Below are positions 3,392 through 19,502 of a stretch of DNA of 35,366 nucleotides, piece by piece. A model generated the notes under the pieces. That model ran no database searches. It was given only the letters and a program-made list of their open reading frames with translations, and was not told the origin of the DNA. The stretch comes from Nocardioidaceae bacterium (GTDB lineage Bacteria > Actinomycetota > Actinomycetes > Propionibacteriales > Nocardioidaceae): positions 1 through 35,366 of the forward strand of contig JAICXL010000023.1 in the NCBI GenBank assembly GCA_025980475.1, written 5' to 3'. A program made the translations under genes and the position numbers. How positions within the stretch are numbered: the stretch's first letter is position 1; every line of letters begins with the position of its first letter.

Positions 3392-3399
3392 TGATCAGC

Positions 3400-6579: not shown

Positions 6580-6966
6580 TCACCAGCGCCGGCACGCCAC
6601 CCGACGGAGCACGAACCACGCCAGCAGCCCGAAGAGGATCACCGGCAGGTGGGTGAGCGCGGTCAGGCCGATGAGGATCACGACCACCGGCAGCAACGGC
6701 AGCGGCCACCAGCCGTGGGCGCGGCCGGGCCCTGCGATGCGGGGCCGGTGCTCCGCCTGCGGCCGCCCGGCCCCGACACCGGGCAGGTCGGCGAACAGCG
6801 GCCGCAGGTCGGCGTTCGTGCGGGCGGCCCAAGCCGCCTCGCAGCGCTCGTCGTACTCCTCGCGGGTGAGCCTGCCGTCGGCGTAGTGCTCGCCGAGCGC
6901 CCGGGCGGCGGACTCCCGGTCGGCGTCGGAGATCCGGATCCGGTCCGGGTCGTAGCGAGTGTCCAT
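6580..6966 (-). CDS. DUF1707 (SHOCT-like) membrane protein
   Basis: A 128-residue protein. The N-terminal DUF1707 domain is recognisable from IRISDADRESAARALGEHYA, then DGRLTREEYDERCEAAWAAR and TNADLRPLFADLP. The C-terminus has a hydrophobic hairpin (WWPLPLLPVVVILIGLTALT, then LPVILFGLLAWFVL) and a basic end. Function is unknown for the family; such proteins are usual in Actinobacteria. Its ATG overlaps the TGA of the padR gene by 1 nt, so the two are translationally coupled and probably controlled together by the PadR protein. Confidence 0.8.
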   Translation of the reverse strand: MDTRYDPDRIRISDADRESAARALGEHYADGRLTREEYDERCEAAWAARTNADLRPLFADLPGVGAGRPQAEHRPRIAGPGRAHGWWPLPLLPVVVILIGLTALTHLPVILFGLLAWFVLRRVACRRW

Positions 6967-7562
6967 CACGCCTCCTCCTCCTCGGGGCCGTCCGCGAGCA
7001 ACCCGAAGAGCTGCCGGCGCGTGTCGGCCAGGATCTCGGCGGCCCGCTCCAGCTGTCCGGGCGAGCCCGTGGTGACGATCTGCCAGACGGCGCCCATCAG
7101 CTGGCCGATCACCGGCTTGAGGCCCGTGTCGGACGGCTGCTCGTCGTCGAAGGGTGTCCACACCGCGTCGAGCTCCTCCGTGTGGTCGGCGACGTACTCC
7201 TGGCCGACCGCCGTGAGCCGCAGCAGCTTTCGGCCGCCCTCGGCCACGGTCTCGACGAGGCCCTCGTCCTCGAGCTGGGCGATCGTGGGGTAGACCGAGC
7301 CCGGGCTGGGCCGCCAGGCACCGCGGCTGCGCTCGGTGATCCGCTGGATGACCTGGTAGCCGTTGAGCGACTCCTCGCCACGGAGCACGTCCAGGATCCC
7401 GGTGCGCACATCCCCGCGACGGACCCGGGGGCCGCGGACGGGGCCCGGTGAGTGCCCCCAAGCGCCACCGAGGAGCTGCAGAACCCACGGCGGCGGACCG
7501 GCCGGGCCGCCGGCTCCTGGACCGAACACCGGCGGTCCCCACCCTCGTCCACGATGACCCAT
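6966..7562 (-). CDS. PadR-family transcriptional regulator
   Basis: A 198-residue protein. After a Gly/Pro/Trp-rich 50-residue extension comes the PadR winged helix: VRTGILDVLRGEESLNGYQV, IQRITERSRGAWRPSPGSVY, PTIAQLEDEGLVETV. The C-terminal part is a helical dimerisation segment ending in an acidic tail. The ATG at 7562 has GGAG 6 nt upstream. The AT-rich palindrome region at 7582-7610 just upstream is the likely operator. PadR proteins typically repress themselves and a linked membrane protein, which fits the coupled DUF1707 gene; the inducing signal is unknown. Confidence 0.88.
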   Translation of the reverse strand: MGHRGRGWGPPVFGPGAGGPAGPPPWVLQLLGGAWGHSPGPVRGPRVRRGDVRTGILDVLRGEESLNGYQVIQRITERSRGAWRPSPGSVYPTIAQLEDEGLVETVAEGGRKLLRLTAVGQEYVADHTEELDAVWTPFDDEQPSDTGLKPVIGQLMGAVWQIVTTGSPGQLERAAEILADTRRQLFGLLADGPEEEEA

Positions 7563-7616: not shown

Positions 7617-8435
7617 TCAGGCAAGACCCTCCGGGACGGCGTTGACGGCTGCCGCGTGCAGCACGGCCTTGACCTGTGCCGGGTCCAGACCGGGGTGCTT
7701 GGCCCGGACCAGCGCCGCCATGCCCGCCACGCGGGGGGCAGCGAAGCTGTTGCCGGTCGCCACGATCCGGCCGCCGCCGGCCCAGGCCACCTCCACGTCG
7801 ACGCCGCAGCCGGCGAAGTCCACCGGCGGGTGCGGGTTCGCGGCGAGGTCCCACGGGTCGGCGCCCGGACGGGCGGCCACGGAGATCACCGAGGCGAACT
7901 CCGCTGGATAGGTCGGTCCCGGCAGGTTGTTGGCGGCGCACACGAGCACGCTGCCGGCCGAGCGAGCGGCGTCTGCAGCCGCGTGCAGCGGTGCGAACCA
8001 GGCGTCGCTCCGGCTGGAGAGGCTCAGGTTGACCACGTCCATGCCTGCCGCCACCGACCACCGAATCCCCGCCAGCAGCCGGGCACCCGTGCCGCGGGCG
8101 TTAGCCCCGAGGACCCGCACACTGTGGATGCTGGCGTCCGGGGCGATGCTGCGGATGATCGCGGCGCAGGCCGTGCCGTGCCCGACCAGGTCCTCGTGGC
8201 GGCCCGCCACTGCGCGGACACCGTCGGCCGCCTGAGCATCCGGCTCGAAGGCGATGCAGCCGTCGACTCCGCCCACGAGCGGATGGCCGGCGTCCACACC
8301 GGAGTCGACCACGGCGACGCGGACCCCCGCGCCGGTGGACCCGCCCCAGGCCCACTCGCGGACCGGCTCGGGCAGCGGCAGGCCGACGACCTCGGCGAGG
8401 TCGGTGAACGCCGCCGACCAGTCCGCGAGGGTCAC
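7617..8435 (-). CDS. Intracellular subtilisin-like serine protease (S8 family)
   Basis: A 272-residue S8 peptidase. The triad is visible: Asp44 (VAVVDSGVDAGHP), His86 (DLVGHGTACAAII) and Ser230 (VATGNSFAAPRVAG). The oxyanion Asn lies in VCAANNLPGPTYPAEF near residue 170, where the usual Gly-Asn is Asn-Asn. There is no signal peptide, no propeptide and no membrane anchor, so it should act in the cytoplasm. The GTG at 8435 overlaps the stop of the GAF gene as GTGA; a longer open frame upstream lies inside the GAF gene and is Arg-rich shadow. Tight coupling to GAF and to the small peptide suggests a specific processing role. Confidence 0.87.
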   Translation of the reverse strand: MTLADWSAAFTDLAEVVGLPLPEPVREWAWGGSTGAGVRVAVVDSGVDAGHPLVGGVDGCIAFEPDAQAADGVRAVAGRHEDLVGHGTACAAIIRSIAPDASIHSVRVLGANARGTGARLLAGIRWSVAAGMDVVNLSLSSRSDAWFAPLHAAADAARSAGSVLVCAANNLPGPTYPAEFASVISVAARPGADPWDLAANPHPPVDFAGCGVDVEVAWAGGGRIVATGNSFAAPRVAGMAALVRAKHPGLDPAQVKAVLHAAAVNAVPEGLA

Positions 8436-8950
8436 CGGCCCGATCCAGGGCCCGATAAAGGGTCCGATCCGTGCTCCTGGGCCAGACAGACGGCCCCGGC
8501 GACCTGAGCGGCCAGGGCGGTCAGCACCGCCAGCTCGGCAGCGCTGCCGCGCTGGTGGCCGAGTGCGGCCTCGCCCGCGCCCCGGGCCGGGTCGAGGAGC
8601 TCCATCACCCCGAGCACGTCGCCGTCCGGCCCGGGCAGCGGCGCAGCCAGCAGCACCGTGGGGACGTAATCGGTCGACTCGGCGACGTCGCGGGCGAACC
8701 TGGCGTCGGCCTGTACCTCGGCGACGGCGATCGGCTGGCCGGACAGTGCGGCCCAGCCGACGACGCCGCGGCTCACGGGCAGTGTCGTGCCCACGATCGC
8801 ATCGGCGCCGACGCCGTCGGCGACCACGAACTCCAGGCGCTCCCCCTCGTCGTCGAGAAGGGCGACGGAGCACGCCGCGGCGCCGAAGAGCGCCCGGGTC
8901 GAGCCGACCGCCGCCTGCAGGCAGCCCTGCAGCGCCGTCTCCAGGTGCAG
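8432..8950 (-). CDS. GAF-domain protein with a probable CTG start
   Basis: About 172 residues forming a single GAF domain: LETALQGCLQAAV, ALFGAAACSVALLDDEG, LPVSRGVVGWAALSGQPIAV, then ARFARDVAESTDYVPTVLLA and GDVLGVMELLDP. GAF domains bind small ligands or sense redox state. An in-frame TGA lies at 8960-8962 and no ATG, GTG or TTG occurs before the GTG at 8827, which would delete the first helix and strand of the domain. A CTG at 8950 with GAGGG 6 nt upstream, one base past the stop of the peptide gene, is the best start. The alternative is a frameshift joining the peptide to the GAF domain. The 3' end overlaps the protease by 4 nt. Confidence 0.75.
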   Translation of the reverse strand: MHLETALQGCLQAAVGSTRALFGAAACSVALLDDEGERLEFVVADGVGADAIVGTTLPVSRGVVGWAALSGQPIAVAEVQADARFARDVAESTDYVPTVLLAAPLPGPDGDVLGVMELLDPARGAGEAALGHQRGSAAELAVLTALAAQVAGAVCLAQEHGSDPLSGPGSGR

Positions 8951-8951
8951 C

Positions 8952-9122
8952 TCAGTCCCTCAGCCTGAAGTGGGCGTTGACGTCCTCGTCGTCGGTGAGG
9001 ACCGGAGTCATCGAAGCCTGCGGCGCGGCGGCGGCGCCCGGCTCCAGCGGCGTGCCCATGTGAGCCTCGACGTCCTCGTCCATGTGCGGCTCCATCTGCC
9101 GGCTCTGCTCGAACCTCTGCAT
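8952..9122 (-). CDS. 56-residue peptide with a duplicated DEDV(E/N)AH motif
   Basis: Starts MQRFEQSRQMEPHM and carries DEDVEAHM at residues 15-22 and DEDVNAHF at 45-52, separated by a Gly/Pro/Ala-rich linker (GTPLEPGAAAAPQASMTP). The end is RLRD. There are no Cys, no hydrophobic segment and no signal peptide. I do not recognise the family. The gene sits one base before the GAF start and in line with the protease, so the three are a unit. Possible roles are a protease substrate or inhibitor, a precursor of a ribosomally made peptide with two core-like segments, or a small regulator; none is shown. The reality of the gene is supported by the repeat, by position and by the GAF frame closure. Confidence 0.6.
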   Translation of the reverse strand: MQRFEQSRQMEPHMDEDVEAHMGTPLEPGAAAAPQASMTPVLTDDEDVNAHFRLRD

Positions 9123-9138
9123 GACCTGTTCCCTTCGT

Positions 9139-9150
9139 GGGACCGGTCCC
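9139..9150. repeat. Perfect palindrome in the peptide gene leader
   Basis: GGGACCGGTCCC is a 12-bp perfect palindrome. It lies within a larger inverted repeat GTGGGAC (9137-9143) and GTCCCAC (9164-9170), 20 nt apart, just before the peptide start. These could form a hairpin in the 5' leader or be an operator. Confidence 0.4.
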
Positions 9151-9199
9151 GAACCCGGTTGCTGTCCCACGATGGTGCGCCGTCCCCGGCGCTCCTGAC

Positions 9200-9215
9200 T
9201 GTCGGCTCGCCGACA
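9200..9215. promoter_or_regulatory. Crp/Fnr-type palindrome upstream of the peptide-GAF-protease genes
   Basis: TGTCGGC-TC-GCCGACA is a perfect inverted repeat; read as TGTCG-N6-CGACA it has the 5-6-5 layout of Crp-family sites. It lies in the 118-bp gap between the Crp-like gene and the peptide gene, 78 nt before the peptide ATG. It could also be a stem at the end of the crp-like transcript, though no T-run follows. Confidence 0.4.
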
Positions 9216-9240
9216 CAACGGCCAAAGAGCCGGCCGCCGC

Positions 9241-9930
9241 TCAGCGGGCGGCGACGCGCTCCAGGGCAGCGAGGTCGAGCACGGTGACCTTCCCGCGACC
9301 CAGCGCGACCACCCCCTGGGCCTCGAGCCGCTGCAGGATCTGGTTGACCGTGGGGCGGGTGCCGCCGGCCAGCTCGGCGAGCTGTGCCTGCGTGAGCGGC
9401 AGCTCGACCGGCCCGCCACCGGTGCGGTAGATGGCGGCCAGCTCGGCCAGCCGCCGATGGACGCGGACGTCCAGGCCCTCGTAGAGGGCCTCCAGCAGCT
9501 GCGTGGTCAGCGAGTCCACCTGGTTGGCCAGGATCGTGGTCAGCGCCCGCTCCACCCGCGGGCGGCTCGCGCACAGGCTCCGGAAGGCGCTGCCACCGAT
9601 CGCCAGCGTGACGGCCGGTTCGAGGGCCTGGACCGTCGCCGTACGTCGGGTCGACGCCCGCAGCAGGGCCAGCTCGCCGAAGTAGTCCCCTGCACCGAGC
9701 ACCCGCACCATCGTCGTGGCGCCCGACGGAAGCGAGACGCTGACGGCGAGCCGGCCGCTGGCGACGAGGCACAGGCTGTCCGCCCGGTCGCCGTCCCTGC
9801 AGAGGACGTCGCCGCGAGCGAAGGCTCGGGGCCGCGCCAGCCCCAGCAGGTCCCCGCGCTCGCCCGGCGACAGGCTGCGGAGCAGGGGCCAGTCCACCGA
9901 GACCTGCGCTGCCACCGCCCTGCGGTCCAT
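9241..9930 (-). CDS. Crp/Fnr-family transcriptional regulator
   Basis: A 229-residue protein with an N-terminal cyclic-nucleotide-binding domain (FARGDVLCRDGDRADSLCLV, then LGAGDYFGELALLRASTRRT with the FGEL and RxA elements of the phosphate-binding cassette). A long dimerisation helix follows, then a C-terminal Crp-type helix-turn-helix (LPLTQAQLAELAGGTRPTVN, QILQRLEAQGVVAL). There is no Fnr-type N-terminal Cys cluster, so oxygen sensing by an FeS cluster is not supported. The ATG at 9930 has GGAGG 5 nt upstream. It is followed in the same direction by the peptide-GAF-protease genes and is the natural candidate to control them. Confidence 0.88.
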   Translation of the reverse strand: MDRRAVAAQVSVDWPLLRSLSPGERGDLLGLARPRAFARGDVLCRDGDRADSLCLVASGRLAVSVSLPSGATTMVRVLGAGDYFGELALLRASTRRTATVQALEPAVTLAIGGSAFRSLCASRPRVERALTTILANQVDSLTTQLLEALYEGLDVRVHRRLAELAAIYRTGGGPVELPLTQAQLAELAGGTRPTVNQILQRLEAQGVVALGRGKVTVLDLAALERVAAR

Positions 9931-12474: not shown

Positions 12475-12633
12475 TGACCGGGCACCTTTGGCGCCCGTGG
12501 AGCGCCGACGCGTCAGTTCTGGCGGTCAGAGAAGCGGTGACCGGTCCATTCTGGCGCTCCGACCGGAAGCCGACTGCCCCAGAAGTGACCGGTCGACGTC
12601 AGCACACGCACCAGAAGTGACCGGTCGGCGTCA
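12475..12633. repeat. Second array of the dispersed ~24-bp repeat (five copies)
   Basis: Three forward copies (12475-12495, 12503-12524, 12536-12557) and two reverse copies (12577-12601, 12610-12633). The reverse copies share CCAGAAGTGACCGGTCG and CGTCAG. Turned round they read CGCCGACCGGTCACTTCTGG, which matches the copies at 2569-2620 apart from a few bases. The last copy supplies the stop codon of the MFS gene (TGA at 12633-12631). The array fills nearly the whole 173-bp gap between hemW and the MFS gene; no other feature is seen there. Confidence 0.82.
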
Positions 12634-14352
12634 GACCGCGATCCGCCGGGACACGATCGAGTCGGCGGCCATCCGGGCGTCGTCCTGCCCGATCACCGCG
12701 GCCAGGAAGTCGTCGCGCTCGAGCACCTGCAGCACCGCATCGCTCTCGGCGGTGACGGTGGCCGTGCGCGGCACGTCGCGCAGCAGGCCGATCTCGCCGA
12801 AGAAGTCGCCGGCGCCCTCCTGTCGGATGACCCGGTCACCGTGGCTGACCCGCACCGAGCCGGACTCGATGACGTAGAACCGGTCGGACTCCTGGCCCTC
12901 CTGCACGATCACCACGCCGGCCGGCACCTGGAAGCGCTGCAGCTTGCGGGCCAGGCTCTCGACGGTGGTTGGGCCGAGTGGGGCGAACATCGGGATCGCC
13001 TCGAGCAGCGGCACCCCGGCCGGGATGGCGAGGGCACCGTCGAGCCGGCGCGCCCTGGGGATCCAGGGCAGCACCAGCACGGTGATGCCGATGCCGAGGA
13101 TCGCCAGCGCGAGGTCGAAGCCGACGACATCGATCAGGAACGGCATCAGCGCGGCGCCGAGCGCCATGGTGCCGATCAGTGCGCCCTCGAGGGCACCGAA
13201 CACACGGCCAAGCAGCTCGTCGGGCATGATGCGCTGCAGGATCGTGGCGAAGCTGACGTCGACCATCGGATTGCCGAAACCCATCGCGATGATCGCCGCG
13301 AAGACCACGGGCACGCTCGGGAAGGCCCAGACGGCCACGAGCGGGATCGACCACAGGATCACGCCGACGACCAGGTCGCTGGCAAGCTTGCGCTTCTTCG
13401 CCCGGGAAATGGCGAACAGCCCGCCGACGATGGCGCCGACGCCGAAGCCGGAGTCCAGGTAGCCGACTCCCTTGGGCCCGGTGCCCAGGATCTCCACGGC
13501 CATCACGACCGTGTAGACCGCAGAGGCGCCGGCCACCACGGTCTGCACGCAGGTGAGTACGGCCACCATGGTGGCGTCGCGGTCTCGTGCGATGGCCCGG
13601 AACCCCGCGGTCGTCTCGCTGACGAAGCCGGCCTTTGCCGGCTCCTCGCCGTCGCTGCTGGTCTCGCGCGCGCTGCCCTCCTCGTGCTGCACCGCTCGAG
13701 CCCGGATGCTGAGCACGAGCAGGGCCGACCACAGGAACGTGGCCGCGTTGATCATGAACACGGTGGGCACGTCGGTCACCGTGAGCAGGAAGGCGCCGAG
13801 GGCCGGACCGAGGAAGAACGCCAGGCTCTCCAGCGTGCTCGAGGTGCCGTTGGCCGCGGTGAGCTCGTCGGGCGAGTCCGCCAGGCTCGGCATCCAGGCA
13901 GCCTGCGCCGGCCGGAACGCCGAGGAGACCAGGGCACCGGCGCCGGAGAGCACGAAGACCGGCCAGACGGGGGCGTGCAGGTAGAGGCACATGGCCGCGG
14001 CGACGAAGAGCAGCAACCTGACGAGGTCGCAGACGACCATCACGAGCCGACGGGAAACACGGTCCGCGAGCGTAGCCATGAAGGGGGCTGCCACCGCCAT
14101 CATCGCCAGCCGGACGGTGTAGAACAGGCCGACCGCCTTGGTGCCTCCCACGCCGTAGGCGAAGACGGCCGTCGCGGTTCCCGAGGCCCAGTCGCCGATC
14201 ATCGACCCGGTGAGCGCCAGCTGTATCTTGCGCAGCCGTGGGTTGCGGAAGACAGAGGCCAGCGAGGAGCCTGTCTCGCGCACCGCCGAGCGTGCACCGC
14301 TCAGCAGCCCTCCGGTCGGCGCAGGTGCTGCCGGAACGGTCTGTTCGGCCAT
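12631..14352 (-). CDS. MFS transporter fused to a C-terminal cyclic-nucleotide-binding domain
   Basis: A 573-residue protein. Residues 40-430 are a 12-helix major facilitator of the EntS-like exporter type (LTGSMIGDWASGTATAVFAY, DRVSRRLVMVVCDLVRLLLF, then AFRPAQAAWMPSLAD). The last 130 residues are a cNMP-binding fold: VPAGVVIVQEGQESDRFYVI, then GAGDFFGEIGLLRDVPRTAT with FGE and the R-T-A of the phosphate cassette. So transport may be gated by a cyclic nucleotide. I chose the ATG at 14352 because GAGG lies 6 nt upstream; 27 further codons upstream are open. The substrate is unknown. Other actinobacteria have similar fusions, so this is not unique. Confidence 0.85.
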   Translation of the reverse strand: MAEQTVPAAPAPTGGLLSGARSAVRETGSSLASVFRNPRLRKIQLALTGSMIGDWASGTATAVFAYGVGGTKAVGLFYTVRLAMMAVAAPFMATLADRVSRRLVMVVCDLVRLLLFVAAAMCLYLHAPVWPVFVLSGAGALVSSAFRPAQAAWMPSLADSPDELTAANGTSSTLESLAFFLGPALGAFLLTVTDVPTVFMINAATFLWSALLVLSIRARAVQHEEGSARETSSDGEEPAKAGFVSETTAGFRAIARDRDATMVAVLTCVQTVVAGASAVYTVVMAVEILGTGPKGVGYLDSGFGVGAIVGGLFAISRAKKRKLASDLVVGVILWSIPLVAVWAFPSVPVVFAAIIAMGFGNPMVDVSFATILQRIMPDELLGRVFGALEGALIGTMALGAALMPFLIDVVGFDLALAILGIGITVLVLPWIPRARRLDGALAIPAGVPLLEAIPMFAPLGPTTVESLARKLQRFQVPAGVVIVQEGQESDRFYVIESGSVRVSHGDRVIRQEGAGDFFGEIGLLRDVPRTATVTAESDAVLQVLERDDFLAAVIGQDDARMAADSIVSRRIAV

Positions 14353-14368
14353 GTGGTCCTCGCCCCTA

Positions 14369-14389
14369 GATTCGCTCCCCCGACGAATC
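14369..14389. promoter_or_regulatory. Inverted repeat upstream of the MFS-cNMP gene
   Basis: GATTCG and CGAATC separated by 9 nt, 17 nt upstream of the ATG. It could be an operator or a leader hairpin; no matching regulator gene adjoins. Confidence 0.35.
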
Positions 14390-14458
14390 GTGCCCTCTCC
14401 AGCCGGAGGTGCGGAATAGTCATTACGGGCCACACTGCCCGTCAGCGACCGATGGGGC

Positions 14459-18553: not shown

Positions 18554-19453
18554 TCAGTCCTGCACGGCCTTGACGATCGCGATGCAGGCGGTGAGCCACT
18601 CCTCGGTCGCCGGCCTGCGCGCGGGACCCGGGTCGTCCTGGAGCGCCCACATGGCGTTGTGCAGCATCCGGACCACCACCCAGTCGCGGGCGCGGTCCTC
18701 GTCGAGTCCGGCGGCGTCGACCAGCGCATGGAACCGGCGCCGGACGCCTTTGCGGACGCCCTGCCCGCTCGTCCCGAGCTCCTCGAAGCGGTTCCACAGC
18801 ATCGGCGCGGGCTCGTAGTGCGGGTCGCCGCTCATCGGCTTCGGGTCGATCGCCACCCAGGACTGCCGCTCCGCGGCCAGCACGTTGGAGTAGTGCAGGT
18901 CGCCGTGGACCATCGTGCCGGTGCTCGCCGCGTCGGTGACGAAGTCCCGCCCGAGCGACACCGCCTGCTCCACCAGCCGGTGCGGCAGCGGGGCGCTGCG
19001 CGGGAGCGCGGCCAGCTCGCTCCCCCAGCGCTCCGTGTACGACGTCAACGGACGCAGCTGTGGCGGGGCGGGCACGTGGAGCTGCGCGTAGAGACCGGCC
19101 ACCACCTCGCACGCCTCGCCGTCCTCCACGTCGCCCAGGTCCCGGGCGCGCAGCCGCTCGAGCAGCAGCGCGCGGCGGTGCGGGTCGGCCCGGAGCAGCC
19201 GGACGGCGCCACGACCCGCCCAGTGCTGGAGGGCGAGGTGCTCGTGCTCCGACTCGTCGTCGCCGTCGTAGGTCACCTTGAGGACGGCCGGCGTTCCGGC
19301 CGTCGTACCGCCTGATCGCACCGGGACCACCAGGGAGGTGTAGCCGTGCATCGGCAGCCCGTCCACGGCCAGCTCCCACTCGGCGAGCAGCGCATCGGCC
19401 AGCCGCGGCAGCCGGTCGACCCAGTCCGCCCAGCCGGCGTCGCGCCCGGCCAT
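18554..19453 (-). CDS. APH(6)/hydroxyurea-type small-molecule kinase
   Basis: About 299 residues, of the aminoglycoside/hydroxyurea phosphotransferase family (PF04655, the streptomycin 6-kinase family). The catalytic loop is MVHGDLHYSNVLAAERQSWV, the metal-binding Asp follows in AIDPKPMSGDPHYEPAPMLW, the signature of this family. Nucleotide-lobe Lys is in AVLKVTYDGDDESEHEHLAL. Chromosomal copies of this family often have unknown natural substrates, so antibiotic resistance should not be assumed. The ATG at 19453 has GGAG 9 nt upstream; a GTG at 19480 is open but has no such site. Confidence 0.8.
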   Translation of the reverse strand: MAGRDAGWADWVDRLPRLADALLAEWELAVDGLPMHGYTSLVVPVRSGGTTAGTPAVLKVTYDGDDESEHEHLALQHWAGRGAVRLLRADPHRRALLLERLRARDLGDVEDGEACEVVAGLYAQLHVPAPPQLRPLTSYTERWGSELAALPRSAPLPHRLVEQAVSLGRDFVTDAASTGTMVHGDLHYSNVLAAERQSWVAIDPKPMSGDPHYEPAPMLWNRFEELGTSGQGVRKGVRRRFHALVDAAGLDEDRARDWVVVRMLHNAMWALQDDPGPARRPATEEWLTACIAIVKAVQD

Positions 19454-19502
19454 GCCGAGCACTCCGGCGGGCAGCCTCACGCGCGGATCGGACCGGCGGG
19501 GG

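Follow-up and report, generated by a model that had tools for sequence, protein, structure and literature searches.

A DVEGH repeat peptide co-inherited with an intracellular S8 subtilase and a GAF protein: a probable peptide-processing cassette in Nocardioidaceae and other bacteria

Positions 1–35,366 of contig JAICXL010000023.1 from a Nocardioidaceae bacterium (GCA_025980475.1; 2.76-Mb assembly, 114 contigs), hereafter the window, carry on the minus strand, in this order, genes for a Crp/Fnr-type regulator, a small acidic peptide, a GAF-domain protein and an S8 subtilase. We regard this set as a probable peptide-processing cassette, in which the peptide would be a precursor cut at a repeated motif by the subtilase, the GAF protein would be the partner of the subtilase, Crp would control expression, and transporters joining a major facilitator superfamily (MFS) pump to a cyclic nucleoside monophosphate (cNMP)-binding domain, here MFS-cNMP, would export the product. 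It looks like a real and unreported peptide-making system of several bacterial phyla; no description of the system or of its motif was found in the open-licence PMC literature, a report elsewhere being possible. An earlier description made from the letters and open reading frames of the window (the sequence-only reading) had set out the four genes in this order, the last three with joints of 1 and 4 nt, and both the sequence and the Pfam domains confirm the cassette so described. Genomes and loci are referred to by G and L numbers. The features are as follows.

9241–9930, minus strand: Crp/Fnr-type regulator with cNMP_binding and HTH_Crp_2 domains (Pfam).
9200–9215, no strand: perfect palindrome TGTCGGCGAGCCGACA, weak candidate for a Crp operator upstream of the peptide gene (sequence).
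8952–9122, minus strand: 56-residue acidic peptide, degenerate two-motif member of the DVEGH repeat-peptide family (open reading frame, family co-occurrence).
9060–9080, minus strand: motif copy 1, DEDVEAH, predicted cleavage after H21 (motif from sequence).
8970–8990, minus strand: motif copy 2, DEDVNAH, predicted cleavage after H51, which would give a C-terminal FRLRD (motif from sequence).
8432–8950, minus strand: GAF-domain protein, probable CTG start (Pfam, alignment of 17 proteins, model).
7617–8435, minus strand: intracellular S8 subtilase, triad D44/H86/S230, oxyanion residue N170 (Pfam, alignments, model).
12631–14433, minus strand: MFS transporter whose C-terminus carries a cNMP-binding domain, no more than a candidate partner (Pfam).

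The GTG start of the protease gene (8435–8433) and the TGA stop of the GAF gene (8434–8432) overlap by 4 nt. In the GAF frame the first ATG, GTG or TTG occurs only from 8827 on, and none leaves the domain whole; a CTG at 8950, one base past the peptide stop and with GAGGG just upstream, would preserve the whole domain, which in an alignment of 17 GAF proteins begins at this very position. Since no other start keeps the domain whole and the alignment places the N-terminus there, translation probably begins at this CTG. The end of the Crp gene lies 118 nt from the peptide start, so a shared transcript is not required.

The co-inheritance of peptide and protease was followed in a sample of 197 Nocardioidaceae genomes (S8 at E≤1e-30, peptide profile at E≤0.001). 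S8 is present in 11 of them, the window included, and the repeat peptide, searched with a profile of eight repeat peptides, was found in exactly those 11 genomes and in 0 of the 186 others (Fisher's exact test 3e-18, relatedness ignored). Since eight of the 11 positives supplied the profile (the peptides of G023, G040, and G130 did not enter it), there is some circularity among the positives, from which the 186 negatives are free. The outcome that the sequence-only reading had named as refuting it did not arise: Crp, GAF, and S8 homologues are neighbours in all ten S8-bearing relatives, the Crp homologue (44–54% identical) adjoining the cassette in either orientation, and the peptide accompanies the protease in the sampled genomes without exception. 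The peptide gene itself moves about: it is upstream of GAF in the window, L021, and L023; downstream of S8 in L018, L025, L026, and L027; divergent from Crp in L022; facing S8 in L019; and behind an MFS-cNMP gene about 5 kb off in G022 and about 12 kb off in G130. Membership that is kept although gene order is shuffled argues for function. A chance neighbourhood of unrelated genes, for which one could point to the degenerate window peptide and to a sampled genus otherwise free of the protease, is hardly credible: it is contradicted by the identical sets of 11/197 genomes, by adjacency kept with shuffled order, and by the counts against control loci given below.

The protease belongs to the Peptidase_S8 family (PF00082; 92.7 bits, gathering score 21.8). 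D44, H86, S230, and N170 are invariant in 10 aligned S8 proteins and likewise in 29; the N-terminus lies about 40 residues ahead of the catalytic Asp, and by eye no prodomain, hydrophobic N-terminal segment or signal peptide was seen in it. The intact triad and the lack of a signal peptide, both part of the first description, are upheld. The structure model (predicted local distance difference test score, pLDDT, 93.6) has variants of subtilisin BPN' as its best PDB matches. The best NCBIfam match is QhpE (NF049966), a subtilisin-like protease of quinohemoprotein amine dehydrogenase maturation, which we take to act in peptide maturation and which is likewise a small S8 enzyme; the score differs, 112 bits being below the cut-off of 165. 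Mycosin (TIGR03921, type VII secretion) scores 110.8 bits against a cut-off of 278.75 and PatA/PatG (TIGR03895) 20.4 bits against 421.05, so that the protease reaches the cut-off of none of the three. A passage of PMC8172795 lists qhpE among the qhp operon genes modifying the gamma subunit.

Named genomes were scanned with the S8 alignment; from at least 507 related stretches the best 80 loci were kept, namely a similar set of 40 loci (41–67% identity; L062–L099 with E no worse than 9e-47, together with L120 and L121; the G022 contig is present as L064) and a control set of 40 weaker loci (32–41% identity). At least two strict motifs ([DE][VT][ED][GA]H) within 45 residues occur at 17/40 similar loci vs 0/40 controls; a GAF domain within 1 kb on the same strand at 33/40 vs 3/40 (in three of the seven misses the protease lies less than 300 bases from a contig end); a cNMP domain within 6 kb at 28/40 vs 2/40; and a class III cyclase domain within 6 kb at 7/40 vs 0/40, the GAF, cNMP, and cyclase profiles having been trained on family genomes only. 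An initial GAF limit of 300 bp, relaxed afterwards to 1 kb on the same strand, gave a low 8/40 vs 2/40 because only the matched domain core was measured. Loci with paired motifs include Nocardioides, Micropruina, Naasia, Jatrophihabitans, an Acidimicrobiia bin, and Chloroflexi bins; strict or variant motifs near S8 relatives were seen in Actinomycetota, Chloroflexota, a Dormibacterota bin, and a Spirochaetaceae bin. As a unit, the proposed set of four genes stands with all four present and is incomplete: the cassette extends beyond Crp, peptide, GAF, and S8 as first drawn, MFS-cNMP and cyclase genes often lying nearby.

In the window peptide the duplicated motif of the first description is borne out (DEDVEAH and DEDVNAH): one DVx[GA]H pair within 45 residues is found in the window and none in 100/100 shuffled windows. 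No Pfam or NCBIfam match was obtained with it at E≤1, and none of the repeat peptides scanned passes a Pfam or NCBIfam cut-off. A genome search with the window peptide alone returned only the window and spurious-looking matches, because the window copy is degenerate; the family came to light through the protease search. From 28 repeat peptides 103 units were collected, with a pattern that itself fixes five positions, including the His; the repeat core is [DE][DE][DE][VT]E[GA]H with variable surroundings, the period 14–38 residues (mode 16), and the number of copies 2 to 12 per collected peptide. Seventeen of 31 repeat peptides terminate within 10 residues of the last motif, with tails that are net basic in 17/17 and that copy the start of an inner unit in 9/17 (6.6% in random pairings); the tail of the window peptide does not repeat its inner unit. 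From this basicity and resemblance, the repeat unit likely consists of the motif, a short basic core, and an acidic spacer. Variants near other protease relatives mostly keep the same grammar: nine copies of D[TA]EG[QM] in L172 between GAF and MFS-cNMP (six DTEGQ, and two DAEGQ in which the V/T position is not kept); DVEGN three times in L068; DTEGM in L094; DTQGF in L175; EVEAH and DVEAH in L177. In L084 a peptide at about −1195 to −923 relative to S8 has IAKIAKIAKI runs between DTEGH motifs, and these runs resemble cationic amphipathic antimicrobial peptides.

Read in subtilisin terms, the motif offers a hydrophobic or beta-branched residue at P4, leaves P3 free, and has a small residue at P2 and a bulky one at P1. 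Because it fits these subsites and lines up with the site of PatA given below, the motif is most likely a cleavage site. The small protein would accordingly be a ribosomal precursor with a cut site in each [DE][DE][VT]E[GA]H copy, and the cytosolic, prodomain-free S8 enzyme would cut after the His, with V/T at P4, E/Q at P3, G/A at P2, and H/Q/N/M/F/Y at P1. Each cut would yield a short basic peptide (e.g. RVLR, LRAPGR, AARSGR), after which an acidic spacer would come in multi-copy precursors; for the window the predicted products are residues 1–21, 22–51, and 52–56 (FRLRD). That the protease cuts the peptide we hold with good confidence, judging from motif and subsites; that the cut falls after P1 of the motif seems reasonably likely.

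The first description had offered two relations between peptide and protease, cutting or inhibition. The match of the motif to subtilisin subsites and its 2 to 12 copies in each repeat peptide collected favour cutting and speak against inhibition. As a stoichiometric inhibitor or chaperone, the peptide would lie in the active site as a pseudo-substrate until ligand binding by GAF frees the protease, and a protease without prodomain beside a small, acidic, co-inherited peptide would suit such a role; but an inhibitor needs neither the variable number of strict motifs (1 in L185 to 12 in L069) nor variable spacers, nor tails that copy the start of an inner unit (9/17), and the peptide occurs in two genomes without a close protease, so that we consider this distinctly improbable. 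Less probable still is a metal-binding or stress-protective disordered protein degraded by the protease once unneeded. The peptides are acidic and repetitive, with His in nearly every motif (collected with His fixed), but some members have Q, N or M where others have His, while G/A stays and V/T mostly stays, a pattern that suits protease subsites better than metal ligands, and several precursors end just past one motif.

Processing of the precursor by the subtilase may be compared with known peptide systems. Cyanobactin precursors hold repeated cores, each after a short recognition site. To our knowledge such clusters include neither GAF nor Crp nor MFS-cNMP genes; the present cassette differs further in that its protease is far under the PatA/PatG cut-off, that the repeat peptides have by eye no common long leader, and that no further enzyme recurs near the cassette. 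What PatE with PatA/PatG would share with it is a subtilase cut after a recognition site: the PatA site appears in an excerpt of PMC10885120 as G(L/V)E(A/P)S, with the cut after it, and aligns subsite by subsite with D(V/T)E(G/A)H. The system would then work like a multi-core precursor with a dedicated subtilase. A RiPP-type architecture (ribosomally synthesized and post-translationally modified peptide; a precursor with separable recognition part and core beside a processing enzyme) fits the layout, with processing as a prediction.

Peptides at four more distant loci back, without proving, a role of the motif at the junction of leader and core. In L180 and L181, two large-genome actinobacteria (7.9 and 9.9 Mb), the genes for the S8 relative, GAF, and a zinc-ribbon/cyclase/AAA protein form an apparent operon; the cyclase, S8, and GAF genes abut or overlap, and a radical SAM gene lies upstream. 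The upstream region of L181 also encodes a haem-oxygenase-like protein and a peptide that scores above the cut-off of the aroma-sacti model NF045560 (74.7 vs 30 bits), its C-terminus being EVQAH with a short tail; a similar peptide is encoded in L180, in addition to one of 53 residues with EVEAH in mid-sequence. In L085 (Ktedonobacterales) a peptide located about 4 kb from S8 combines a sub-threshold leader of NHLP type with DVQGY before the tail. In L093 (Acidobacteriota) a peptide encoded about 2.5 kb from S8, near 3395 on the minus strand, has DVQAY ahead of a RiPP-like tail rich in Cys and aromatic residues, and gave no NCBIfam match at E≤0.1. The likeness to aroma-sacti RiPP clusters lies in the operon of S8 relative, GAF, and cyclase with its upstream radical SAM gene in L180/L181 and in the L181 peptide, which passes the model and has the motif-like EVQAH; the window cassette differs in that radical SAM and haem-oxygenase-like genes are absent and its peptide does not match NF045560. 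The term 'aroma-sacti' was not found in the open-licence PMC literature searched. The L181 cyclase has the TOMM kinase/cyclase (TIGR03903) as its best NCBIfam match (148 bits), a model that takes its name from a peptide system; the score is far under the cut-off of 705.75, and this gene type is not in the window cassette.

The cyclic-nucleotide control proposed in the first description stands as a suggestion drawn from neighbourhood, in the cNMP-domain counts above, and from a predicted fold. The GAF model (pLDDT 89.1) has as its best PDB match 5w10, the GAF domain of Lcd1 with bound cyclic AMP (cAMP; 26% identity), and the next matches include PDE2A and the GAF domain of a cyanobacterial adenylyl cyclase; the modelled fold resembles a cyclic-nucleotide-binding GAF, a resemblance and not proof of binding. 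The GAF protein, its gene overlapping that of the protease, would be the regulatory partner of the protease, perhaps through cyclic-nucleotide binding, and Crp would govern expression. The Crp-like palindrome of the first description is a perfect 7-2-7 palindrome and is rarely shared: of 20 other cassettes, searched over up to 10 kb each with two loose definitions, 5 have similar ones. As a conserved Crp operator it was set aside, and it is kept as a weak candidate.

An MFS-cNMP homologue (E≤1e-50) occurs in 11/11 family genomes with the protease vs 19/186 others. The G039 copy contains stop codons; in G006 the match starts 18 bp past the end of the S8 match; and in G022 and G130 the peptide gene comes directly after the MFS-cNMP gene, as in G353 the two lie directly side by side, which points to transport. 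The pumps form two subfamilies. The window copy groups with that of G130, but the homologues nearest to it come from genomes that lack the protease (G071, G119). The pumps linked to the cassette in G058, G023, G006, and G022 belong to the other subfamily; for these reasons the window MFS, considered as a firm part of the cassette, was downgraded to a candidate. MFS-cNMP pumps, where linked, could export the product, a view that we hold tentatively.

Alternatively, the peptide could be an intracellular effector in a cyclic-nucleotide circuit, its fragments being ligands of zinc-ribbon/cyclase/AAA/TPR proteins or of GAF, with the protease resetting or activating the circuit and no export. The class III cyclase domains near 7/40 loci, the cyclase-type genes that adjoin the peptide without S8 in G396, the apparent operon of cyclase, S8, and GAF in L180/L181, and the cAMP-bound best match of the GAF model all suit such a circuit; however, cyclase domains are near a minority of loci only, and the MFS-cNMP genes beside the peptide gene in G022, G130, and G353 speak for transport, and we rate the circuit as improbable. 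In L184 (4486–12047), two tandem zinc-ribbon/cyclase-type genes of about 1200 codons stand between an upstream Crp gene and a DVEGH peptide gene that comes after them; a close protease was not found in that genome.

Several results weigh against a dedicated precursor–protease cassette. By sequence alone the window peptide is a weak, degenerate member of its family: with profiles built without it, it is the best match in the window, but at E=0.013 and 0.42 only. No S8 was found in the other sampled genomes of its genus. Two strict motifs are missing near 23 of the 40 similar loci, several of them on short contigs; single or variant motifs were seen by eye in six of these (L067, L068, L072, L094, L120, and L121). 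In a phylum sample of 376 genomes S8 is present in 11, the window included; clear repeat motifs occur in L172 and L177 among the ten further ones, L180 and L181 have only single EVQAH/EVEAH motifs, L175 has a variant only, and no motif peptide was found in L173, L174 (a short contig), L176, L178, and L179 (with L176 and L178 of one genus). A 40-position profile (A3) run on the same 376 genomes matched 18; besides the window only two have a plausible small open reading frame with the motif, the rest showing either a long frame, probably a shadow one, or no motif, and it missed the peptides of all S8 phylum genomes save that of the window, a weak match in G442 looking like a shadow frame. In G396 and G353 a clear DVEGH peptide is encoded next to Crp, cyclase-type or MFS-cNMP genes, and no close S8 was found in these drafts (94 and 92% complete). 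Besides S8, GAF, cNMP/MFS, and cyclase/AAA, no other enzyme recurs in at least 5/50 loci at the clustering used, in which the cNMP/MFS cluster absorbed some ABC-transporter open reading frames. The loci are related by descent, so the counts are not independent.

Other parts and other roles were considered and rejected. PadR (6966–7562), DUF3097, DUF4870, and MBL genes were queried as cassette parts in 5–9.5 kb around the protease of ten family genomes, with a single MBL match (L026). In G190 (L005, 1–1800) the MBL and DUF3097 genes, which in the window stand on either side of the region, are close together with only a small open reading frame between them, which looks like a cassette-free site. 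An anti-phage defence system was dismissed, as PADLOC gave only matches of subtilase/cNMP-domain type, to five window proteins, and nothing specific. Spread of the protease by plasmids was likewise rejected, S8 being matched in just 2/72,556 plasmid records at 1e-30; one of the two pairs S8 with GAF, and the motif peptide was found in neither. The Miltoncostaea oceani plasmid NZ_CP064357 (L182, 5995–10285) has a row of S8, GAF, an 88-residue hypothetical protein without the motif, MBL, and MFS. Elsewhere in the window, 18554–19480 encodes a protein with an APH(6)/hydroxyurea-phosphotransferase-type kinase domain (PF04655).

With the motif, a peptide family whose scanned repeat members pass no Pfam or NCBIfam cut-off becomes searchable, and the cut sites in it can be predicted sharply. 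If the cuts occur, new short peptides, possibly signals or antimicrobials acting outside the cell, would have been overlooked by mining for modification enzymes, and cyclic nucleotides would be linked directly with peptide processing. A cross-phylum system run by cyclic nucleotides at each step (Crp, GAF-gated subtilase, DVEGH cuts, MFS-cNMP export, and cyclase/AAA/TPR sensing) is on present evidence unlikely; if real, it would amount to a bacterial counterpart of multi-copy pro-pheromones.

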